Assembly (NCBI GenBank): GCA_026874595.1
Contig: CM049309.1
Span: forward strand, 49,336,079 to 49,400,078
Direction of reading: 5' to 3'
Length of the DNA stretch: 64,000 bases
From: Sipunculus nudus
Taxonomy: Eukaryota > Annelida > Sipuncula > Golfingiida > Sipunculidae
The translations under genes were made by a program, and so were the position numbers. The notes under the pieces were generated by a model. It had not been told where the DNA came from. It ran no database searches and saw nothing but the letters and a program-made list of their open reading frames with translations. Shown one piece after another: positions 1 through 64,000 of the stretch (its first letter is position 1; each line of letters starts with the position of its first letter).

Positions 1-2400
1 CGAGTAAAAAAAAACATAAAGAAGATGACATGCTCAAAATAAGTTGAAACTTTTGCGTAAATTGCTGGGGTGTTGAGAGTATGTTGACGTCATACAGAAC
101 TAACCATGTAAACAAACACACGTGGCACTACATGGTGATTGGACGACACGCGTGGGGGCGTGGTCCTATTTTATATGTCCTCGTGTTTTTGGGATTTTCA
201 CACTGCGGGAAGTAATACATCCGCAAGCTGAATAAACGTAACTGGTTAGTTGTTTAACTGCGAGGGTGCTTCTTACATCTGGATATATTTACTATAGTGA
301 ATTAAGGGAAATAGTCATTTTCTGTTGTGTGTGTTCGATGGAACTCAAATTCATGATTAAATTAAATGCATAATTAAGATGTTACTATAATCGTGTGACA
401 AAAAGACACGTGATCAAAGTGAAATGATCATTTGGGTGAAATGATTTTCGACTTGCATGAAAACGAAAATCTGTGGTGCCCTCAATGTATATTGTAAATG
501 TGTACTACAAAGTTATGCAGATATGGTGTTTACTTCAACCGCCAGGGCATGGGTAAATATACATTGGAAGCATTATTAAATGTGATATAGGTTTATTTTG
601 AATTTACTGTGTTTTATTAAAAAAAGGTTAAGGAAAACATCTACGCGCACAGAAATATTATTTGTGTGTACATGTACGTGTGTATGCATATTATGTATAT
701 ACTGACCTATAAATGTATGTATATGGACCGTGAGTCTGAAATAAAGCATTTTCGTATCATATACCATTAGATCGAAGTGAATGCGTCCACGGAACTCTGC
801 GTTCACACTTTAATGTTCCCAAGTGCCGATATTCCGGGGATTTAATATTTTATAACGTTTGTTTACCGAAAAAGTAACAAATAAGTATAGAAAGAACAAA
901 AGTTGCTTGTGTTTGTCACTGGCAGGCGAAACGGACACACTAGAGATCCACAGACGAAGTTTATTCACCGGTAGAAGAGCAAAACAAAGAATAAATTCAT
1001 GAGGACTTTAACGACAAGTGTTTATGGACTTTCCGATGTAAAAATACATTTCATACTAAATATATCACGGGATACTTACCTTTCTTACCTTCCACAGATA
1101 CTATGTGCTCAGTTGAACGATTTTGAGGACTTTTTAGATTAAGATGAGGATACTTTTTGATAAGGTTCGTAAAAAATTCACATTCTTCAAGACAGGTCAA
1201 TCATAAGCAATTTGATTGCTTCTGGTCTTTTCAGGGGTAGTCTTAAATTAATATGCATGTGGTTTTTTTAGACAGGTGGTCTTTCAGACAGAATCCATTC
1301 TAGTTTACAAAAACAGGTCAGTAGGCACAGTTACTCTCTCAAAGAATGATGGAAATTTTGAGCGCAAAAGGACTCAACGAAAACAAAGATTCCAAGACCA
1401 AAGCAACACGAGGCAAAGCGCTAAGCAGAACTGTAATTTATGTTGGGTGGTTAGTCTCAGATGTGTAAACTTTGCATATATAGTTTCTTGGTTCCCCTGG
1501 TCAAATAAAAACTAAACTCCTCGGGTGCATCAACCATAAATAGGCTCGAGCATGCCTGGCCCGTTGCATACAAACAAACGTGATGGTATTTCCAAAGTTC
1601 CGGTTTATCTATATACAGATGTAGTAGATTCTGAGTTTTATATTACCAATTTTCAGAACAAATGAAAACAAATGTGGGGACTCAAGTTCTGCGCGGAAGC
1701 TGATGATAAAGAAAAATATCTCGAGACGGTAACCTGAAATGTTGGACGTTAACCAAATATTGTTCCAATGGAAAGACGTGACATGTTATCTCCAATTTCT
1801 CAGTGGTGACAGTCAATCAGATCTACTTGTTACACCAGTCATTAAAGCAATAAACTTTTAACTTTAAAATACGCCTAACGATATATTATTAATAACACAC
1901 ACATACTGGATGAATTGAAAGTGGCTCCGATCATTCAAAAATTTAGTTAATAAAATTAAAAATACGAGTTTAAAGATCAACGAATCAAACTTGTACGTGT
2001 CATTACATTTAAAATCACTGGCTTTTTTATACTTGCGCCAGTTATGTGATAAGTTAGTAAACGCTTCAATATGTGATAAGAGTGTATACTTAAATCAATT
2101 GTTAAAACAACGACTGGATTCCGGGTGCGATAGCTACTAGTTTGCCTATTACGGTCACTGATAAAATATTTTTTTAAGACACTGACATGCTTACAGAATA
2201 ATTAATGTATACCTATTTTATTCCATACTGGTGAAATCAGGTTCATGTTACCTACCAAAGATTTTCAGGTTTCGCGGGGGATTCAGAAGCTGAAGCATTC
2301 TAGATCAAATAAGAATGTTCCTTTTTATTTGAGCAGTAATTTTACATCGATTCCTGATTTAATTATCACAAAGAAAATGTTTTTGGTTTAAATTCTGTTT
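1..2400 (+). promoter_or_regulatory. Promoter-like segment (CRE, CCAAT, GC box, TATA-like) followed by unassigned DNA
   Basis: A perfect CRE TGACGTCA sits at 85-92, an inverted CCAAT (GATTGG) at 137-142, a G/C-rich GGGGGCGTGG at about 154-163 and a TATA-like TTTTATATG near 170. Together they look like a core promoter firing rightward around 200. No coding exon was recognised downstream up to 2400; a piece near 1238-1300 matches a dispersed repeat also found near 38220-38265. The call rests only on motif spacing. Confidence 0.3.
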
Positions 2401-3096
2401 CGGTTAGGCATTTAAAATTACTAATATTTATACACACATATATTATTAATAGCAACAAAAAATTGTATTATATGTGTATATGTCATTTTATTTTCATGTG
2501 ATAAAATAATATATGGAGTTCAAATAGAGAACAAGAATAAAGTAAAAATCACACAAAATTTAATGAAAAATGTAAACATCCTAAATTAGTTTCATACCAA
2601 TCATATCATTCTTACTTACAATCTATGAAATCATGGCAACATAGTATGGCAATGTCAATGAACAATTGGTAAATCATACATCTTAAAATATTGCACTTAA
2701 CAAAATAACATAATAAAGACATATTTAGCATACTCAATATCAGTCAACACATGAATATGCTGTGTTGACTGAGAACCCATGATAGGTTCTTACAAAACCC
2801 ACAGTAGGTATGAAATGAAAGGTTACATTAATTCAAACTGTACTCAATAAACCCACAAAAGTATAATGCTCAATGTAGCTATATAAAAAGGAAATATTTG
2901 AGAAAATACTTTTACATTTCATGTTATTCAGCTGTTATTTATAACGCTGCTTCCAGTAATACTGCAATATCACAGGCCCTTGAAATTATATAATAGCAGA
3001 TAAACACACTTTAATATCACTATTAATGGTATTATCTACTATTTTACATTTCAAGGCCTGTAGCAATTACATTACATTTCTATATAATCCCCCTTC

Positions 3097-3398
3097 AGCC
3101 AAAAAAAAAAAGGGTATGGTTCTCAGGCACCGCCTGTGTCAATGTTAACCCCCCGCATCAAACATTATTATTTTGATTTTCATCTTTCAAGAAGAAAAAA
3201 TAATATAATTTTGATACAATTTCCTTTGTTATGTAGTGCTTTTAGCAAAAAAAACTTATTTTCATGCTTTTCCCTGATCTTATGACATTTTTATTAAAAC
3301 ATACAAAAAAAGGTCAAAAATAAAATTCCACCCGCCCGCAGTGATTTCTGAAAAAAAATGCCTGAGAACCATACATTTTTATTTTTTTTTGGCCTTAG
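3097..3398. mobile_element. MITE family 'GGTTCTCAGGCA', copy 1
   Basis: About 300 bp with long imperfect terminal inverted repeats: AGCC-A(n)-GTATGGTTCTCAGGCA at the left, and TGCCTGAGAACCATAC...GGCCTTAG at the right. Copy 2 lies in inverted orientation at about 14611-14974, and the internal sequence is also shared (for example TTTTCCCTGATC). No coding capacity. Confidence 0.8.
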
Positions 3399-4345
3399 TC
3401 TCTCTTTACATTTATAATATGTTTGGTATTACAAATTGAAATCTGAGAACTGGCCTGCGAGAATACATGATAAATCAACTTTGTGCTTTCATTAATGACA
3501 ATAAAAATAGATCAAAGGTAAAACTGAAAGCCACTTTAATCCTATGAGCAATCCTGAAAGACTGATACACCTATATGCTGACATTTGGCTCCTATATATA
3601 CATGTAATTATAAAACATCAGCTGTTATATGCACACATACATATTGTTTAAATAAATGTTCATGAATCATATGAGAAGGAAACTTTGTTGTACCACATCT
3701 GAACTGGGTCCCTTTTTATATTTCAATAAAAAATAACACCTTACAAAATATTTATCAAAAATGGAATTTGATGGGTTCTCGAATTTATGAACAATAATTC
3801 GTGCAAATTATTGTGATGTAGAAAATACAGGTACACAGTTTGGTCCCTTATTTACTACACAAGATGTAAATTTAGCATATAATTAATACATACACAGTTT
3901 AACTTTAAACTTAGTTTTCATTTAAAGTGGAGACAGCTTGCCATACGACAGGATATGAATTAATTTCTGCAATATAATGATAAAGTTTCACACAAAAATG
4001 ATATGCTGCAAAAAATCCTTGTATAATTAATATTTCTATATAAATTAAATTTATAACATGGACCCATTATTTAAATAAACACCCTGAATCCATGTCTTGA
4101 AGATTATTCATTAACTATGAATGTGTTAAAAATCCTCTCTTAATAACATTTCAATTTCAATCATAATACACCAAAATATAATACCCTTTCACACATAGAA
4201 ATTTCCTAAATTTTGACTTAGATATATAAATGATAAAGGCTTGCCACATGGCCTAAAAATATGCATAGATGTTTGACATAACTGAATTTATGCCACACAT
4301 TACATTAATACACCATTGGTGAGGTTTGCCTCTTGACCAAGCTTA

Positions 4346-4360
4346 GGCGCCCTCTGGTGG
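4346..4360 (-). promoter_or_regulatory. CTCF-like motif
   Basis: Minus strand reads CCACCAGAGGGCGCC, a full match to the core CCASYAGRKGGCRS consensus of bilaterian CTCF. It lies about 1.5 kb downstream of the SGK3 stop. Occupancy cannot be judged from sequence. Confidence 0.45.
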
Positions 4361-5517
4361 AGATTTAGCTCCCTAATGTGGGATACTATTTTACACAATC
4401 TTAATTTATTTGTAGCACCTGTTTCAACCAATATTTGCAGGTATATACCAAAATAAATAATGCAACTGTTTTACACTGATGCCTAAATTCAAAAGCATTC
4501 TTTCAAACACATAAACAGTTTTTTAATTACTCAAAAAAAATGTGTAACGTATTAAAATTTTATTGCTCATGTCCAGCATCTTACTAACAAACAGCTATCA
4601 CTCTGAGCAAAATATAAAATAAAACTGCTTGGTTTCTGTGCTATGTTGTACAATTTGCAGGTCTACCACCTGTTCTGTTATAAATTATATACAGTATAAT
4701 ATTACTGTAAGTCAAGATTCTCAAGCATCAGGATAATGGACTAGGGTCAGAGATACCTTGTTTTAATGAAATGGGCAAGAATAGATCAAATGATGCATAA
4801 AATGTGGTGTTTGCATACCTGAAATAAATGACACCATTTTTGTTTGTTTATTGCAAGTATAGCTTAAAGTGATAATGTATACAGGTAGCCTCTTGCAAAC
4901 AGTAAGGTATGACTTGCAAACAGTACTGCTCATATAAATTAAAATATGTGCTTTGTTGGTTGTGTTACACTTAATATGTGATGGATCACAAGTGACTTTT
5001 CTTTTTTCAAAATCCATGAAAACATAAGTAAAGGAATAATATGCCACACATAAGTAAAGAAATAATATGCCACTAAACACATAAGTTACATTGTTTCATG
5101 GTCGCACTGTTCTTGAAGTTTTAATCCTATTTTCTATGTATTTATAGTTGTTGAATGCCTGACAGTGCTGCCATCTTGTTCTTAATTTAGCTCAAATCTA
5201 GCACCCGCTAAAAGTCTGAAAATTAAAACCCTGCTAACAAAACCACTTCCACAGTATTTTGGAATGTATGAACTAAAGTAAATTCTTTAAAATATATGTG
5301 ATGTTGCCCTCCCTTCTTGTAGCTATTCCACATTCTTTAGGGACCCTTGAAAAAAAAAATTCTGTAAATCCCAGATTATTATTGTTCTAACGAATAGATA
5401 TGAGATAAAATGGAATGCAACAGGTTTAGAGGATAATATTGGCTGTTGAAGAAATATGTTGCTTTAATCCCCAGATTGTTCTTTGCTAATTCATGTAAGA
5501 TTATCTGGTTTTTGGTG

Positions 5518-5523
5518 TTTATT
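5518..5523 (-). terminator. Candidate SGK3 polyadenylation signal
   Basis: AATAAA on the minus strand about 310 nt after the stop codon. It is the first canonical hexamer after the minisatellite. The downstream flank is AT-rich with many further hexamers (for example near 4848), so the true cleavage site could be much further on. Confidence 0.3.
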
Positions 5524-5599
5524 TCTATGCATGAGTGGGTCAGCCTGAGTGGTATTTGACTCTCTCCCCAGATCTAGAATTGTGATGTTTTGCTCTATA

Positions 5600-5830
5600 C
5601 ATAAGTTGACCTAGTGTCTGCATGGTTTTTGCCTCCAATTATCCACGAGTGTGTTATCCTGAGACTTGTTTTTTGGTGTTTGATTCTATATATGAATGTG
5701 TTATCCTGAGTCTGGTTTTGTGGTGTATGGTTCTATCAATGAATGTGTTATCCTGAGAGTCTGGTTTTGTGGTGTTTGGTTCTGTCTATGAATGTGTTAT
5801 CCTGAGAGTCTGGTTTTGTGTTGTTTGGTT

Positions 5831-5838
<8 letters not shown>
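5600..5838. repeat. 47-49-bp minisatellite starting at the SGK3 stop codon
   Basis: Four clear units carry GTGTTATCCTGAG at 5651, 5698, 5745 and 5794, and more degenerate units lie between about 5520 and 5640. The last unit on the plus-strand side ends inside the coding sequence: its TTCTATCCATG is the reverse complement of the final SGK3 codons plus the TAG stop. The array therefore forms the first part of the 3' UTR. Confidence 0.85.
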
Positions 5839-21327
<15,489 letters not shown>

Positions 21328-23011: not shown

Positions 23012-25852
23012 ACTTGTACAAGAGTTGTACCATTATATCTTACTACAATGTAACATCATCATTACAAGAATAGTTACACTATATCTACCTCAATGTAACA
23101 TCATCTATACAAGAGTGATACCACTGTATCTACCTACCATGTAACATCATCTATACAAAAGTGATACCACTTTATCTACCTACCATGTAACATCATCTAT
23201 ACAAGAGTGATACCACTGTATCTACCTACCATGTAACATCATCTATACAAGCATGACACCACTGTATCTAACTACCATGTCACATTATCTATACAAGAAT
23301 GGTACCACTGACTGTATCTAACTACCACATAACATCATCTATACAAGAGTGATACCACTGTATCTACCTACCATGTAACATCATCTATACTAGAGTGATA
23401 CTGGTCTATGTATGCCACAAAATATCATCTATACAAGAGTGATACAACTGTATCTACCTGCAACGTAACATCATCTATACAAGCGTGACACCACTGTATC
23501 TAACAACCACATAACATCATCTTTACAAGAGTGATACCACTGTATCTACCTACCATGTAACATCATCTATAAAACAGTGATACAACTGTATCTACCTACC
23601 ACCTAACATCATCTATACAAGAGTGATACCACTGTATCTACCTACCATGTAACATCATCTATACAAGAGAGATACCACTGTATCTAACAACCACATAACA
23701 TCATCTTTACAAGAGTGATACCACTGTATCTACCTACCATGTAACATCATCTATAAAACAGTGATACCACTGTATCTAACAACCACATAACATCATCTTT
23801 ACAGGAGTGATACCACTGTATCTACTTACCATGTAACATCATCTATAAAACAGTGATACCACTGTATCTACCTACCACCTAACATCATCTATATAAGAGT
23901 GATACCACTGTATCTAACTACCACATAAGATCATCTATACAAGAGTGATACCACTGTATCTACCTACCATGTAACATCATCTATACTAAAGTGATACTGC
24001 TCTATGTATGCCACAAAACATCATCTATACAAGAGTGATACCACTGTATCTACCTGCAACGTAACATCATCTATACAAGCGTGACACCACTGTATCTAAC
24101 TACCATGTAACATCATCTATACAAGAGTGATGCCACTGTATCTAACAACCACATAACATCATCTTTACAAGAGTGATACCACTGTATCTACCTACCATGT
24201 AACATCATCTATAAAACAGTGATACCACTGTATCTACCTACCACCTAACATCATCTATACAAGAGTGATACCAATGTATCTACTTACCATGTAACATCAT
24301 CTATACAAGAGTGATACCGCTATATCTACCTACCATGTAACATCATCTATACTACAGAGATACTGCTCTATATACATGCCACATAACATCATCTATACAA
24401 GAGTGATACCAGTGATATACATGCCACGTAACATCATCTACATAAACCCATAGCAACATCAATACAAGAGTGATACCACTGTATTTACCTATCATGTAAC
24501 ATCAACCATACATGAGTGATACTGCTGTATCTAACTGCAACGTAAAATCATCTATACAAGACTGATACCACTGTATCTAACTGCCATGTAAAATCATCTA
24601 TTCAAGAGTGATACCACTATATATACCTACCATGTAACATCATCAATACAAAAGTGATACCACTGTATCTACCTACCATGTGACATCATCTATACAAGAG
24701 GGATACCACTGTATCTACCTACCATATAACATCATCTATAAAACAGTGATACCACTGTATCTACCTAACACCTAACATCATCTATACAAGAGTGATACCA
24801 CTGTATCTACCTACCATGTAACATCATCTACATAAACCCATAACATCATCTATACAAGAGTGATACCGCTATATCTACCTACCATGTAACATCATCTATA
24901 CTAGAGTGATACTGCTCTATATACATGCCACATAACATCATCTATACAAGTGTGATACCACTGTATCTACCTGCCACGTAACATCATCTACATTTACCCA
25001 TAGCAACATCAATACAAGAGTGATACCGCTATATCTATCTACGATGTAATATCAACCATACAAGAGTGACACTGCTGTATCTAACTGCAATGTAAAATCA
25101 TCAATACAAGAGTGATACCACTGTATCTAACTGCCATGAAACACCATATACATAAAAACCATAGCAACATCTATACAAGACTGATACTACTGTATTTAAT
25201 TGCCATGTAAAATCATCTATTCAAGAGTGATACCACTATATATACCTACCATGTAACATCATCAATACAAGAGTGATACCACTGTATCTAACTGCCATGT
25301 AACACCATATACATAAAAAACCATAGCAACATCTATACAAGATTGATACTACTGTATCTAACTGCCATGTAAAATCATCTATTCAAGAGTGATACCACTA
25401 TATATACCTATCATGTAACATCATCAATACAAGAGTGAAACCACTGTATCTACCTACCATGTAACATCATCTGTACAAGAGCGATACCAATGTTTCTACC
25501 TACCATGTAACATCATCTATGAAACAGTGATACCACTGTATCTACCTACCAACTAACATCATCTATACAAGAGTGATACCAATGTATCTACCTACCATGT
25601 AACATCATCTATACAAGAGTGATACTGCTGTATCTAACTGCAATGTAAAATCATCAATACAAGAGTGATACCACTGTATCTAACTGCCATGAAACACCAT
25701 ATACATAAACCCATAGCAACATCTTTACAAGAGTGATACCGCTGTATCTAACTGCCATGTAAAATCATCTATTCAAGAGTGATACCACTATATCTACCTA
25801 CCATGTAACATCATCCATACAAGAGTGATACCACTGTATCTACCTATCAAGT
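23012..25852. repeat. 46-bp minisatellite, about 60 copies
   Basis: Unit contains CATCATCTATACAAGAGTGA, then TACCACTGTATCTACC and TACCATGTAA; 46-bp spacing is confirmed between 23101 and 23147. The array is about 2.8 kb, starts about 1.7 kb upstream of the SGK3 ATG and has no coding potential. Variant units (CTTTACAAGAG with ACAACCACATAA; ATAAAACAGTG; longer CATAAACCCATAGCAACATC units) recur in the same order, showing higher-order amplification. Confidence 0.95.
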
Positions 25853-27690
25853 AAATTCATAATACAGCTATGTCTGCCTACATGATAATGTTATCTATAA
25901 TAGAGTACTATAAATTTATCCATATCTTTTTACTGGCATTCTTTAAAAGTACCTGTGTATATGTACATTTTATAATAATTTCCTATCAGATTGATGAAAA
26001 CTAAACCTACCTGACACTTTCTGTACAATATGTTTCACTGGGATATACCTTCATAAAGAATTTGCAGAAGTATGATGTCCGCATGTCTATATCCTGACTG
26101 AATAAATCCTTAAGAAGAGTATTCTAAAACCACAGCAAGATCATCCAGGATGACATCAGAATACTGATAACATCACATCACACTTAACACAATTCCACAA
26201 ACCACAAACATCCAGCCCTAAAAATATCACACTTTTTATAATCCTCATATTATGCTTAGCCACAAATAGGATACCACACACAGAACCGTGTACTAACTTA
26301 ACACTAAAATTAAATTTGATAAATCCAGTACACGGCTGTTTTTAAATATCTGACATGAATAAATGCCTACCTCAAATGACTGTAAGCACATGTACAGTTC
26401 AAGATGTTTTGGCTCAGGTTGCTTATCAGACCTGTACTTTAATACTTGAACCTGCATAGTGCACTGACCCAGTAAAGGTTGTATAATTTGTCATGACCCA
26501 TATAAATGTGTCAGCTATATATGCAGTGTATAACCTTTTTCATGCATCACTATCAAGTTCATATATATTTAGGCAGTCTTTGTAGTCTTTTATGACATGG
26601 GGGTGTTATTTATAAGCCTGTTTTTTAGATTTTCTCTTTATGACTTAATCTACAGATAATAAGACCGTGGAGTGTTCTCAGTGTAAAATGACATAAACAT
26701 ACCCAGTGAAGCTTTGAGGTAATGTAATACTTGTTTATTACACCTTCTGTGACGACACTGACTGTACTTGGTACCCTCCATACCATGGCTGGGCTGACAA
26801 TTACGAACAGTACAGCAACAGTACAAAACAGCTGTCTATAGTGCTGCAAGCTACTCTGCCTTTCAAAAACATAAAAAGTGATAAATTTACTTTAAAAAAT
26901 TCATAGAAAATTGTCATGACTGTCCTCACTTTAGACTCCATAAAAAATTAGGATAATTTATACTTGCAAGAAAAAAATTACATATTGACATTGTCAAAAT
27001 AGGTATGATATTTAACTATGTTAACATCTAATACAATGGAGCCTGAACTTAGGACCATCCCACTATTGTGACAACTTTCAGTTACGACCACTGTTCTTGG
27101 TCCTGAATATTTTATAAAATTTCAATGATGAGTGACTAAAAATTGAGATCACCCCAAATTCAGAGTCACAAGCAGATGGTCCAAATGTTAAAGTATTTCC
27201 TCATATGACCTCAGTACTGCAATGACTAGCTGAGTGTCAATGATGAACAAACAATAGATCAAAGAGGGTATTACTGCTACTTGATTATTTAGCCACCTCT
27301 TGATGTTAATTGCTAAAGACTGCATAATGTGCCTGGGTGTAAGGTCACTATTTCTACTCATAATATACTGTATGATCCTAATTTGTACTACACAATCTGG
27401 TTAATCCTCTCAATGTGCTCATATCTTACATGGCTTAAGGCTTTTGTGCAGTCAGCAAAGATGTACAATTCAATGCTTGCATGATGTTCTGAATTTAGTG
27501 TTAAAAACAATTATGTCTAAGTAATTCCACCCAAGGTGTGATCAAAGAGACATACTTTTTTAATAATATTTTTTTTTTGTTGGAGGTTACCACCTCCTTT
27601 TTTTTAATGCTAGCTTAACTAAGTATATGTACATCTACAGAATTCCATTCCAGCTTTGGACTACATGACAGGGCAGTATCACAGCTTCCT
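25853..27690. other. Intergenic sequence, no assigned feature
   Basis: AT-rich, unique-looking. A transposon-like end TACAATGGAGCCTGAACTTA occurs near 27033. No exon was recognised on either strand. Confidence 0.5.
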
Positions 27691-55100: not shown

Positions 55101-58100
55101 AGAATCTTGACTGTACTAAATTTTGTGACAATTTCAGCAAAAAGGAAGAGGGAAGTTGGTAACCATGGGGTCTGTCCACATGTTTAGTGATCAGTACTTG
55201 GACAAGGAGGAAAATGGCAAAATTCTTGTGAGTTGCTTAGTTACCAATATCAATATTACTTGTACAGAAAAAAATAGCAGAATTTTCACGTGTTTGTGTG
55301 GGAAATTAACTCAGTCATTAGACAAAATTTGCTTTCTGCATATAATTGATTTTATTTCTTGATGTAACTTGCCAAAATATTTCTTTCTTTTACTTTTATG
55401 GAATATGTGGTAACTGTACCCATTGTAACTTGTAAACATTTTCATCATTGATACACTCAGAGTATTTCATATCCTGTTGCCATTTTGACCTGTGACCAGT
55501 GAATCTCATTTATATGTATGGATCATTCTTATTCATTGTTTAGATAAAATGAATAAAGGTAGTGCAGGTATTTATGACAGTTATTATTGTGTAATCTCTC
55601 GTGTGCCTTACTGTAAGGTAAGTGTTAAGTTTGCTGTAAAATGTCAGGATTAGTCACACAAAGTTGGCTGAAAGAAAAATTTTCAAAGGCCCAGGTATTT
55701 CTTAGAAAGTATTTTTGGTTGGCTAAAAAATACCAAGATCAAACTAAAAGACAGAGCAAGATTTAAAATTATAGTTTCAAAAGTGTTATAAAAATACCAG
55801 CTGTTTAAGAAAGACTTGGCATCTTAATTGAATGATATAATCAGAACAGATATATTTCTACATATCACATCTGTATATTAAGACAAAAAAAATGTGAAAG
55901 CTAGATAATATATATGCAGAATAGTGTTTATATCTTTTTTTTACATTTTATTTTATTTTTATAACCTGATTTAATCTGAGAATTTTATATTTTTTGTTTC
56001 TCTGTGTCTGCAGGATGTGATATTAAATTTCTTGACCACAGATGAAGTCAGACTTAACCAGATTGATGCTGATGACCCAGAGGTATATATATATATATAT
56101 ATGTATATTTATGTGTGTGTGTGTGTGTACAATCCACTTCCCATTCAAATATAAACATTAGAATTACTGCACAAAATAACAACTTTCTCTGAGTATATAA
56201 TAACACTACACTTATAAAGCAAACAAGAGCTACCATCGACAGATTTATAAAGCAAAATACTGTTAGCTGATGCCTAACTGATTTATTATACTACCAGTAT
56301 TCATAAGGGTTTATCTACTGCTTTAAATGCACTTGTTATAAAAGTGTCCATATAATATTGGAAGGTATGTTTTCTTTAGCAATGTTGTATCTCTGAAACA
56401 CCAGCACAAACAATAATATCTGCAAACTGTTAATCATATAATGACTGAACTTTTATATATATGTTAAGGTATATGTCTACCTTGTGTTGATAATTTTTAT
56501 TATTTTGATTAGGAATAATGATAATACTGGTTATATTAATGGTAATATTGGTTCTGTTAATGGTTATTTTGGTACTATTAATGGGTTTTATGTGTACATG
56601 CAAAATATTTATGGTAATATTGTTACCATAAATGGTAATTTAGTACTATTAATGGTAATATTGGTACTTACGTGTGGATACATCCAGGTATCAGACTACA
56701 ACCAGCAGCCAGACACAGCTTTCCTGGCTGAACAGCTGAAGTCGTGTTTACAAGAGACAGATGAGGTGCCACGTGATGTCACGACACTGTTTGAGAGTTC
56801 CCTGTTCTCACTTGATACAAGCGTCGTACCAAAAGCTATTAAGTGAGTGTGTTGAAAATATAAAACACAATAAGACCTTCTCTGTAAAAGGATATCAATT
56901 CCTGTTTGCAGCTGTTTTATTTTAAAATATTTTTATGTGTACTGCCAATATCATCTTAAAATATTAAACCAAAATATAATTTATCCTGTATTTGTGGAAA
57001 TTTGGACTTTTATACTTTGTGTTTAAATCTGCATGAGTAAGGAACACATGCACACACTTTTTTTTAATAAACTAGACGTGAAACATGACTTACAGTCTCA
57101 CAATGGTTTAATCTTTATGCCTCTCATGTTTTAGGGCATATGAACAATTAGATGTGAAATATGAACTGCAGTCTCACCAGTGGTTTAATCTCTGTTACTG
57201 TTATGTTCCTGGGAATATGAACAGTTATATGTGAAACATGAACTACAGACTCACCAGTTGTTTAATCTGTATGCCTGTTATGTTTCAGGGCATATGAACA
57301 GTTAGATGTGAATCATGAACCACAGTCTAACCTGTTGTTTAATCTGTATGCCTGTTATGTTTCAGGGCATATGAACAGTTAGATGTGAAACATGAACCAG
57401 TCTAACCAGTGGTTTAATCTGTATGCCTGTTATGTTTCAGGGCATATGAACAGTTAGATGTGAAACATGAACCACAGTCTGACCAGTGGTTTAATCTGTA
57501 TGCCTGTTATGTTTCAGGGCATATGAACAGTTAGACATGATGCTTGAACCACAGTCTAACCAGTTGTTTAATCTGTATGCCTGTTATGTTTCAGGGCATA
57601 TGAACAGTTAGATGTGAAGCATGAACCACAGTCTAACCAGTGGTTTAATCTGTATGCCTGTTATGTTCCAGGGCATATGAACAGTTAGATGTGAAACATG
57701 AACCAGTCTAACCAGTGGTTTAATCTGTATGCCTGTTATGTTTCAGGGCATATGAACAGTTAGATGTGAAACATGAACCAGTCTAACCAGTGGTTTAATC
57801 TGTATGCCTGTTATGTTTCAGGGCATATGAACAGTTAGATGTGAAACATGAACCACAGTCTAACCAGTGGTTTAATCTGTATGCCTGTTATGTTTCAGGG
57901 CATATGAACAGTTAGACATGAAGCATGAACCACAGTCTAACCAGTTGTTTAATCTGTATGCCTGTTATGTTTGAGGGCATATGAACAGTTAGATGTGAAG
58001 TATGAACCACAGTCTAACCAGTGGTTTAATCTGTTTGCCTGTTATGTTCCAGGGCATATGAACAGTTAGATGTGAAACATGAACCAGTCTAACCAGTTGT

Positions 58101-61100
58101 TTAATCTGTATGCCTGTTATGTTTCAGGGCATATGAACAGTTAGATGTGAAGCATGAACCACAGTCTAACCAGTTGTTTAATCTGTATGCCTGTTATGTT
58201 TCAGGGCATATGAACAGTTAGATGTGAAGCATGAATCACAGTCTAACCAGTGGTTTAATCTGTATGCCTGTTATGTTCCAGGGCATATGAACAGTTAGAT
58301 GTTAAACATGAACCTCTCAGTCTCACCAGTTGTTTAATCTGTATGCCTGTTATGTTTCAGGGCATATGAACAGTTAGATGTGAAGCATGAACCACAGACT
58401 AACCAGTTGTTTAATCTGTATGCCTGTTATGTTTCAGGGCATATGAACAGTTAGATGTGAAAGATGAACCAGTCTAACCAGTGGTTTAATCTGTATGCCT
58501 GTTATGTTTCAGGGCATATGAACAGTTAGTTGTGAAGCATGAACCACAGTCTAACCAGTTGTTTAATCTGTATGCCTGTTATGTTCCAGGGCATATGAAC
58601 AGTTAGTTGTGAAGCATGAACCACAGTCTAACCAGTTGTTTAATCTGTATGCCTGTTATGTTTCAGAGCATATGAACAGTTAGATGTGAAGCAAGAACCA
58701 CAGTCTAACCAGTTGTTTAATCTGTATGCCTGTTATGTTCCAGGGCATATGAACAGTTAGATGTGAAGCATGAACCACAGTCTAACCAGTTGTTTAATCT
58801 GTATGCCTGTTATGTTTCAGAGCATATGAACAGTTAGTTGTGAAGCTTGAACCACAGTCTAACCAGTTGTTTAATCTGTATGCCTGTTATGTTCCAGGGC
58901 ATATGAACAGTTAGTTGTGAAGCATGAACCACAGTCTAACCAGTGGTTTAATCTGTATGCCTGTTATGTTTCAGAGCATATGAACAGTTAGATGTGAAGC
59001 ATGAACCACAGTCTAACCAGTTGTTTAATCTGTATGCCTGTTATGTTTCAGGGCATATGAACAGTTAGATGTGAAGCATGAACCACAGTCTAACCAGTTG
59101 TTTAATCTGTATGCCTGTTATGTTTCAGAGCATATGAACAGTTAGTTGTGAAGCATGAACCACAGTCTAACCAGTTGTTTAATCTGTATGCCTGTTATGT
59201 TCCAGGGCATATGAACAGTTAGTTGTGAAGCATGAACCACAGTCTAACCAGTTGTTTAATCTGTATGCCTGTTATGTTTCAGAGCATATGAACAGTTAGA
59301 TGTGAAGCAAGAACCACAGTCTAACCAGTTGTTTAATCTGTATGCCTGTTATGTTCCAGGGCATATGAACAGTTAGATGTGAAGCAAGAACTTCAGTCTC
59401 ACCAGTTGTTTAATCTGTATGCCTGTTATGTTTCAGGGCATATGAACAGTTAGACATGAAGCATGAACCACAGTCTAACCAGTGGTTTAATCTGTATGCC
59501 TGTTATGTTTCAGGGCATATGAACTGTTAGACATGAAGCATGAACCACAGTCTAACCAGTTGTTAATCTGTATACCTGTTATGTTTCAGAGCATATGAAC
59601 AGTTAGTCATGAAGCATGAACTACAGTCTCACCAGTTGTTTAATCTGTATGCCTGTTATGTTCCAGGGCATATGAACAGTAAGATGTGAAGCATGAACCA
59701 CAGTCTAACCAGTTGTTTAATCTGTATGCCTGTTATGTTCCAGGGCATATGAACAGTTAGATTTGAAGCATGAACTACAGACTCACCTGTTGTTTAATCT
59801 GTAAGCCTGTTATGTTTCAGGGCATATGAACAGTTAGATGTGAAGCATGAACCACAGTCTAACCAGTTGTTTAATCTGTATGCCTGTTATGTTTCAGGGC
59901 ATATGAACAGTTAGATGTGAAACATGAACCACAGTCTAACCAGTGGTTTAATCTGTATGCCTGTTATGTTTCAGGGCATATGAACAGTAAGACATGAAGC
60001 ATGAACCACAGTCTAACCAGTTGTTTAATCTGTATGCCTGTTATGTTTCAGGGCATATGAACAGTTAGATGTGAAGCATGAACCACAGTCTAACCAGTGG
60101 TTTAATCTGTATGCCTGTTATGTTCCAGGGCATATGAACAGTTAGATGTTAAACATGAACCTCTCAGTCTCACCAGTTGTTTAATCTGTATGCCTGTTAT
60201 GTTTCAGGGCATATGAACAGTTAGATGTGAAGCATGAACCACAGTCTAACCAGTTGTTTAATCTGTATGCCTGTTATGTTTCAGGGCATATGAACAGTTA
60301 GATGTGAAACATGAACCTCTCAGTCTCATCACACCACAGTTTGAAACTCCTCTCCCCCCACTGCAGCCAGCTGTAAGTATAACATATCTTCCTTATAATG
60401 ATTTATACTGTATTCTTTAGTCTGTTTCATGTAACCTCAAGGAAAACAAATACAATCACAAAGTTCTTATGGTCAATTACAGTTATAAAACTTTTGTAAA
60501 TGGTAACAAAATACAAATTCAGATACTTAATGTCTGTTAGATGTTCATTTTGCAATGATTGTTATTTTGTACATGTAAATAGGTGATGAGGATTTAAAGG
60601 GATACACAGATGTAATGGTCACCAAATAATTATAAGGGTTTCAAGAGGTGCCCTATAGTGATCACCTGATTTGTCCATCCATCAGTGATGCTTTCTTTCT
60701 AATACTTTATCTCCAATAGGATGCATGTGATTTTTCTCAAATTTATAGAGATGATTGGTATATATTGGGTTCAAGCTCTATTGCATTACACACCAGTATG
60801 AGTTACAGTATGGCTGCCAGAACAAAATTCTTTATTTTTTTTCGTGGGCAATATCTCAAAGAGAATATGTTTGGGCTTTCCCAGATTCTTAGAGTTGATT
60901 AATATCTATGAGGGCTCTAGCCCTATTGAATGACCGACCCACCCTATATCCAGTATTTCCTTGAGAGCACAATCAGTGAATTTCTTTTGAAGGCAGCTTC
61001 TCAAAGAGACTGATCTTTCCCAAATTTGCAAAGATGAATATTGTCCATAAGGGCTCAAGCCTGATCGAGTTACAGACCTGCCTATTATCCAGTATGGCTG

Positions 61101-62448: not shown

Positions 62449-64000
62449 TTAGCTCAGCTGACTGAAAGTCATCTGAGCTATAGCGATCACTCTTTGTCCG
62501 TCGTCCGTCTGTCTGTCTGTCTGTCTGTCCGTTAACCAGGCACAAATCGTAACCACTGGACCTGGAATCTTCTAACTTGACATCCAGGGAGTACCATGAA
62601 AAATCTCCTTGGAAACCTGAAATTAGGTCTCTGTTACCCATAACCTCTGAGCTATGGGGCTCCGAAGTACCCCCCAGAAAAATGGAAAATTTGATACAAA
62701 AGCTCAAGTATCTGAACAACTATTGCATTGATCACCATGATTCTGTGCATGGATATTGATCATGGAATGTTTCATCAGTTTCTGCAGTCTGGTGGCGCCA
62801 CCTATATTTTTTCGATTTTTACGAATTTTTTTCTTTATTTTTGAGACCTCTTGAGATGTGGTCATCTGTTAACAGGGCACAAATTGTAATGACTGGACCT
62901 AGAATCTTCTCTCTTGAAATTCCGGGAGGCCCATGAAAAGTCTCTTTGGAATCTTGAAATTAAGTCTCTGTTACCCATAACCTCTGAGCTATGGGGCTCC
63001 GAAATACCCCCCGGAATAATGGAAAATTTGATACAAAAGCTCAAGTATCTGAACAATTATTATATTGATCACCATGATTCTTTGCATGGATATTGATCAT
63101 GAAATGTTTCATCAGTTTCTGCATTCTGGTGGCGCCACCTGTATTTTTTAGCTCAGCTGACTGTAAGTCATCTGAGCTATAGGGATCACCTTTTGTCCGT
63201 CGTCCGTCCGGGCGTCTGTCCGTTAACAGGGCACAAATCGTAACCGCTAGAACTGGAATCTTCTTACATGACATCCTGGGAGGTCTATGGAAATTCTCCT
63301 TGTAAACCTGAAATTAGGTCACTGTGACCTATATTCTTTGAGCTATGGGGTTCCAAAGTACCCCCCAGAATAATGGAAAATTTGATACAAAAGCTCAAGT
63401 ATCTAAACAACTAATGCATTGATCATCATGATTTTTTGCATGGATATTGATCATGGAGTGTTTCATCAGTTTCTGCAGACTGGTGGCGCCACCTGTATTT
63501 TTTCGATTTTTACCAATATTTTTCTCTATTTTTGAGACCTCTTAAGATGCGGCCATCTGTTAACAGGGCACAAATCGTAACGACTACACCTAGAATCTTC
63601 TCTCTTGACATGCAGAGAGGCCCATAAAAAGTCTCTTTGGAAACCTGAAATTAGGTCTCTATTACCCATAACCTTTGAGCTATGGGGCTCCGAAGTACCC
63701 CCCAGAATAATGGAAAATTTGATACAAAAGCTCAAGTATCTAAACAACTATTGCAGTGATCACCATGATTCTTTGCATGGATATTGATCATGGAATATGT
63801 CATCAGTTTCTGCAGTATGGTGGCGCCACCTGTATTTTTTTTATTTTTACGAATTTTTTTCTCTATTTTTGAGACCTCATAAGATGTGGTCATCTGTTAA
63901 CATGGCACAAATTGTAACAACTGGACCTAGAATCTTCTCTCTTGACATGCTGAGAGGCCCATGAAAAGTCTCCTTAAAAACTTGAAATTAGGTCTCTGTT
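62449..64000 (+). repeat. AGCTCAGCTGA element with alternating 337/354-bp tandem units, running off the window
   Basis: Headers TTTTAGCTCAGCTGACTG at 62449 and 63147 are each followed by GTCCGTC-rich DNA. Unit starts (GTTAACAGGGCACAAAT) fall at 62531, 62868, 63222, 63559 and 63896, spacing 337, 354, 337, 337. All units carry GAGCTATGGGGCTCCGAAGT and GGTGGCGCCACCTGT. Conserved 60-64-codon frames on both strands reflect recent copying and have no recognised domain. Located in the intron after IFT52 exon 12. Confidence 0.88.

Follow-up and report, generated by a model that had tools for sequence, protein, structure and literature searches.

The closest counterpart found for the element considered here, a tandem array of splice junctions in intron 10 of the IFT52 gene of Sipunculus nudus, is the variable number tandem repeat (VNTR) in intron 18 of human ABCA7, the 25-bp unit of which opens with the GT of the exon-18 donor (PMC5954066). 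In the portions of that report used here, retention of a single unit was seen, array length was inversely correlated with expression, and skipping of exon 19 increased with length (PMC5954066). The IFT52 array lies in a 64,000-nucleotide stretch of contig CM049309.1 (hereafter the window) and, like the ABCA7 VNTR as characterized there, is an intronic minisatellite of many copies which includes a real splice site and adjoins an exon (PMC5954066). In ABCA7 the splice site one unit on gives rise to a frameshifted transcript (PMC5954066), and the upstream acceptor copies in IFT52, which we call decoys, are likewise predicted to break the frame. The two differ in that ABCA7 repeats a donor, whereas IFT52 repeats an acceptor together with 33–44 bp of exon; moreover, the former is documented, in the same portions, by RNA and population evidence (PMC5954066), while the latter is known here from sequence alone. 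In its layout the IFT52 array is the acceptor-side counterpart, or mirror image, of the ABCA7 VNTR. A preliminary description of this DNA knew of no precedent; one does exist in kind, as far as the ABCA7 account used here goes, on the donor side, and on the acceptor side none was found among the matches listed in the open-licence PMC literature.

Other systems invite comparison, again within the portions of the reports used here. The UBC tandem array of AGGT sites, isoforms of which splice stochastically, likewise presents evenly spaced, near-identical splice sites that derive from tandem repetition; these occur every 228 nt in a coding repeat, serve as both donor and acceptor, and keep the frame (PMC10809524). 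Unlike the UBC sites, none of the 41 IFT52 decoys is followed by GT, and the frame would be broken on their use. The In100 element of caspase-2 resembles the array in being an intronic decoy acceptor that possibly affects splice choice, but its description there gives no sign of a tandem or junction-derived nature (PMC2082412). Intron gain by tandem genomic duplication is similar in that the duplication is proposed to touch splice signals; in that process a new intron arises, whereas in IFT52 an existing intron has become longer and a new intron is not evident (PMC4974935).

The array and its splice junctions

The features of the intron-10 region are:

56688..56842, plus strand: IFT52 exon 10 (numbered as in the preliminary description), donor TAA/GTGAGT; from tblastn to IFT52 and a frame-consistent GT-AG model
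56843..60284, plus strand: IFT52 intron 10, 3442 bp in length, the array making up about 93%; from the gene model and Tandem Repeats Finder (TRF)
57073..60284, plus strand: junction-derived tandem array with a 77-bp unit, comprising 41 decoy junctions and, at its left edge, one incomplete copy that has decayed; from TRF and unit alignment
57122..57275, plus strand: a pair of decayed copies of the junction at the edge nearest the exon-10 donor, acceptor 1 with a weak tract and acceptor 2 without AG
58577..59346, plus strand: alternating units with GGC or AGC after the AG (dimeric pattern); from unit alignment and run analysis
60272..60284, plus strand: end of the true 3′ splice site of intron 10, TGTTATGTTTCAG; this is the sole acceptor that leaves the reading frame open
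60285..60372, plus strand: IFT52 exon 11, 88 nt, donor GCT/GTAAGT; from tblastn and the gene model

TRF reports a single array (57073–60317) with a period of 77, at 93% matches and 42.2 copies. Counting the true junction, it contains 42, of which 41 precede exon 11 (60285); the 41 intervals between them are 77 bp in 33 cases, 75 bp in five, 79 bp in two and 76 bp in one. The repeated unit consists of the final 33–35 bases of intron 10 followed by the initial 33–44 bases of exon 11. The array is a tandem repeat with a unit in the 10–100-bp range which lies within intron 10 and takes in the real acceptor of the adjoining exon; it continues into the true junction, the sequence of which it shares. 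This bears out the preliminary description, according to which the end of intron 10 and the start of exon 11 recur about 42 times at 75–79 bp, the series ending at the real exon 11.

Thirty distinct unit types are found among the 41 copies. Units 16 and 40 retain the longer CTCTCAGTCTCA form of the true exon, the remaining units carrying shortened forms. Units 1 and 2, which are nearest the exon-10 donor, are the most decayed of the array; the damage at this edge (57122–57275) could be due to selection against the nearest decoys or to plain edge decay, both of which fit.

Acceptor signals and reading frame of the copies

In most copies a sequence resembling a branch site, CTAAC or CTCAC, lies near −36 and is followed by the tract, AG and the start of the exon; a CTRAY motif is present within 60 bases upstream in 34 of the 42 acceptors, typically as CTAAC at −36. 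AG is retained in 40 of the 41 upstream acceptors, the exception being unit 2 (57212), which has TG; YAG is found in 39, unit 12 having GAG, and the exact TGTTATGTT[T/C]CAG in 38. Over positions −20 to +3, 20 of the 41 decoys are identical to the true site, a figure which rises to 30 if the T/C variant is allowed. With a small acceptor matrix, built from nine other IFT52 acceptors (own scores 10.4–17.1), the true site has a score of 10.4 and 38 of the 41 decoys lie between 8.6 and 10.7, 37 of these with AG and one without it; outside the array, 0.67% of 3133 AGs score as high as the true acceptor. The earlier statement that some 40 upstream acceptors are nearly like the true one is upheld. That the copies keep both the splice signal and correct exon sequence is true of the signal; AYEQLDVKHEP is encoded exactly in just 18 of the 41 upstream copies, and the exon part is therefore less faithful than had been stated.

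All 41 decoys are in the correct phase for the exon-10 donor, as had been proposed, and each of the 41 exon-10/decoy fusions, read to the end of exon 11 with no further splicing, meets a stop between codon 9 and codon 37. Acceptor 60285 is the only one that keeps an open frame after exon 10, in agreement with the earlier view that the last copy alone runs on into functional exon. Use of a decoy would thus lead to a premature stop, the behaviour expected of poison or decoy sites, which the array possesses as a potential. Through the exon-11 donor, decoys 41, 40 and 39 would produce exons of 165, 244 and 321 nt, compared with 88 nt for the true exon.

The two bases after the decoy acceptor are GG in 35 of the 41 units and AG in six, and GT in none; on this ground recursive splice sites and dual-specific sites of the UBC type (AGGT) were both rejected. 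Accessibility of the RNA was also rejected as a discriminator of the true site, the predicted values being 0.0 for the true site (tract 0.15) and 0.0–0.01 for the decoys (tract 0.0–0.34).

Given a mean departure from the consensus of 4.0%, divergence alone predicts that AG survives in 37.8 of the 41 units, and 40 were observed; of the 75 pairs of adjacent columns, 43 are intact in 40 units or more. When all 41 units are considered, the split of changes between exon and intron gives p 0.15 and a circular scan p 0.12. A preset core (−24 to +2) gives p 0.51 and 0.13. Singleton changes show no positional bias (scan p 0.60 with 21 singletons and 0.66 with 13). There is no good evidence for constraint on the splice signal, these tests being weak or negative. 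In the first 11 codons of the copied exon, the 19 distinct changed codon states comprise 13 nonsynonymous, five synonymous and one stop; by this informal tally, coding constraint is not apparent in the exon-derived part of the unit.

Origin of the array and competing explanations

A 173-bp junction query against the 1.43-Gb genome returned at least 42 matches, and 42 of 42 lie inside this array, the search skipping very common words and its repeat counts being lower bounds. A dispersed satellite or transposon-derived repeat was rejected, since that search gave no matches elsewhere in the genome. Copies of other IFT52 exon junctions within the window were also rejected: matches (E ≤0.01) for the other ten exons were confined to the 80-base flanks of those exons and touched an exon edge by no more than two bases.

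Within the array, blocks of units recur: units 15–17 are the same as 39–41, 19–21 as 27–29, and 22–24 as 26–28, which corresponds to lags of 24, 8 and 4 units. These repeated blocks, taken with the alternating stretch and the 30 unit types among 41 copies, point to ordinary exchange and slippage, and the longer CTCTCAGTCTCA form in units 16 and 40 is consistent with a first duplication, some 79 bp in length, from which derived units then spread. Twenty evenly spaced 10-kb pieces of the same contig (200 kb), surveyed for arrays with a period of at least 10, consist of tandem arrays to the extent of 11.9%; six sampled arrays, in five of the samples, have units of 42–145 bp and 11.7–110.5 copies. 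Because similar minisatellites are common on the contig, the occasional involvement of a splice junction is presumably to be expected.

We consider it probable that the array is a locus-specific minisatellite derived from tandem duplication of a splice junction, and that it is neutral and tolerated by virtue of exon definition, with some leakage. A segment of about 79 bp across the intron-10/exon-11 junction would have been duplicated in tandem, and slippage or unequal exchange would have expanded it into the minisatellite. Exon 11 would still be made, recognition across the exon favouring the acceptor with a strong donor at the normal distance (88 nt), whereas some use of decoys, either of the final unit or two or in pseudo-exons closed by donor-like sites of the array, would leak into stop-containing RNA; such leakage is likely. 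What allows the array to be tolerated, we infer, is the donor of exon 11, which is the better one and lies at normal exon length. Scored with a matrix of this gene's 11 donors, none of the 329 GTs in the array reaches the exon-11 donor (best 6.8 versus 8.2), and ten of them match at least six of the nine donor positions. A human exon-trapping study reports the best capture for lengths of 50–250 nt, in the portion used here (PMC10760453). With intron definition it would be the first decoys that count, and the two closest to the exon-10 donor have suffered damage, a weak tract in one and loss of AG in the other. Between the decoy array and the neutral satellite offered in the preliminary description, we favour the latter because the array is locus-specific, minisatellites are common and AG retention is near expectation; the decoy potential finds support in site scores and stops, decoy use or selection does not.

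Several observations weigh against this account. The true acceptor is weak, being level with the lowest of nine other IFT52 acceptors. Ten array GTs score 6.0–6.8, above five of the gene's eleven donors (leave-one-out scores −1.1 to 5.9) and straddling a sixth (6.6). By the donor matrix they are:

58525..59992, plus strand: nine donor-like sites, seven ACA/GTTAGT and two ACA/GTAAGA
57308, plus strand: tenth donor-like site, GAT/GTGAAT, the preceding unit being without AG

Ten units carry these sites, at 12 or 19 bases from the start of the copied exon, and nine of the sites would combine with the acceptor of the preceding unit to form pseudo-exons of 87–89 nt, as against 88 nt for the true exon. 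Donor proximity alone is therefore no clear separator of true and decoy acceptors, and we are less sure that the decoys are mostly ignored by splicing. Furthermore, if the two edge units are left out, the 44 exon-derived columns account for 23 of 31 minimal changes (p 0.046) and the circular scan gives p 0.02, a hint of fewer changes on the splice-signal side.

All 29 acceptor–donor combinations of 50–250 nt that were tried end in stops (one of them has a dead acceptor), and with these donor-like sites the array could therefore yield poison pseudo-exons in addition to poison acceptors. In mutually exclusive or cassette exon arrays of the Dscam type, each repeated exon has its own donor and the frame stays open upon inclusion. 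A regular alternative exon array was rejected for IFT52, given the few donor-like GTs (10/329) and the stops in 29/29 pseudo-exons and 41/41 read-ons.

It is unlikely, in our estimation, that the array was selected as a set of poison acceptors, the decoys, by themselves or in pseudo-exons, competing for the exon-10 donor and leading to nonsense-mediated decay, with copy number setting the IFT52 dose. In its favour, every one of the 41 decoys is in phase and reaches a stop, 38 score 8.6–10.7 (37 with AG) next to the 10.4 of the true site, 20 equal that site over −20 to +3, the ten donor-like sites permit pseudo-exons with stops in each of the 29 combinations, and changes on the signal side are marginally depleted in one subset of units. 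However, AG retention is near the neutral expectation, constraint is absent in singletons, and predicted accessibility is alike for the true site and the decoys. Also unlikely is a length-tunable attenuator, in which forty near-equivalent acceptors, some forming poison pseudo-exons of the true exon's length, would place a load on the spliceosome; part of the IFT52 pre-mRNA, in steady proportion, would be spliced into stop-containing forms and decayed, and array length would adjust the supply between individuals.

A selfish amplification, in which slippage would be promoted by an imperfect 22-bp hairpin of the dominant unit (from the exon start to TATGCC), appears improbable. The consensus unit has a predicted energy of −17.6 kcal/mol as RNA (z −2.92) and −9.1 as DNA (z −2.48), and random changes to the ancestral-like form reach the consensus energy in 4.8% of trials, or 2.7% if limited to the changed region. 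The ancestral-like form, however, is already at −15.7, the units span −5.8 to −17.7, unit 40 RNA folds no better than shuffles (z −0.24), and two-sided changes occur in none of 22 pairs (units 3–41, 27 distinct rows; units 1 and 2 left out). A conserved RNA hairpin was rejected, the fold being good but without covariation among units 3–41. Hairpin-driven amplification is compatible with the minisatellite origin that we favour, and the modelled hairpin may help slippage. Least probable of all is an artefact in which the assembler created or multiplied the copies, since, error-prone as repeat arrays are, the 41 units here are an ordered mixture of 30 distinct types and the array lies within a 97.5-Mb contig. 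The copy number in the assembly may be wrong.

The IFT52 gene and its surroundings

The gene was identified as IFT52 by Pfam (IFT52_GIFT, 7.4e-125; IFT52_central, 1.1e-40) and tblastn, and 11 of its coding exons are located in the window, on the plus strand. The ten exons resolved by the gene model range from 69 to 155 nt and the nine introns between them from 265 to 5662 bp. A further exon with a strong match is found in the next 10 kb beyond the window (window-equivalent 66599–66754), and a candidate last exon at 67377 has a weak match (E 4.4). The genome (1.43 Gb in 153 contigs, the window sitting on one of 97.5 Mb) yielded 11 IFT52 matches, all within this one gene; no retrocopy, which would record real splicing, was found in that search.

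The preliminary description took the host to be a mollusc. In a 32-row IFT52 tree, the window sequence groups with Paralvinella, Capitella and three further sequences, with a Shimodaira–Hasegawa-like approximate likelihood ratio test (SH-aLRT) support of 97; Owenia (83) and two nemerteans (86) are next outward, and the molluscs are separate. The closest protein is that of Paralvinella (76% identical). The grouping with Paralvinella and Capitella therefore indicates an annelid and not a mollusc, a placement based on the one gene, IFT52.

Other tandem repeats were noted. IFT52 intron 12 contains a 337-bp tandem array (63222–64000) which runs on beyond the window as far as about 64.2 kb, and a related 166-bp array extends to 65.2 kb; both stop before the exon at 66.6 kb, the junction of which is not included. 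A minisatellite at 23017–25860 has 46-bp units in about 58 copies, with longer periods of 114–205 bp as well. In the chromosome sample, two long minisatellites (49 bp × 51 and 42 bp × 110) occur within one 10-kb piece (at 1583–10000 of that piece). An open frame on the minus strand (14889–15302) contains a protein kinase domain (Pkinase, 4.8e-13) and is presumably an exon resembling those of AGC-type kinases. No Rfam family at gathering scores and no tRNA by ARAGORN (bacterial code) was found in the window.

With 41 near-identical junctions and the true one fixed in place, the locus constitutes a natural experiment on acceptor choice, whether this falls on the first acceptor transcribed, on that nearest the donor upstream, or on the one that pairs best across an exon. 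It suggests that the birth of a minisatellite on a splice junction is tolerable in an apparently single-copy, intact gene. Should the array act as a length-tunable attenuator, its expansion and contraction would adjust the supply of a ciliary transport protein between individuals.

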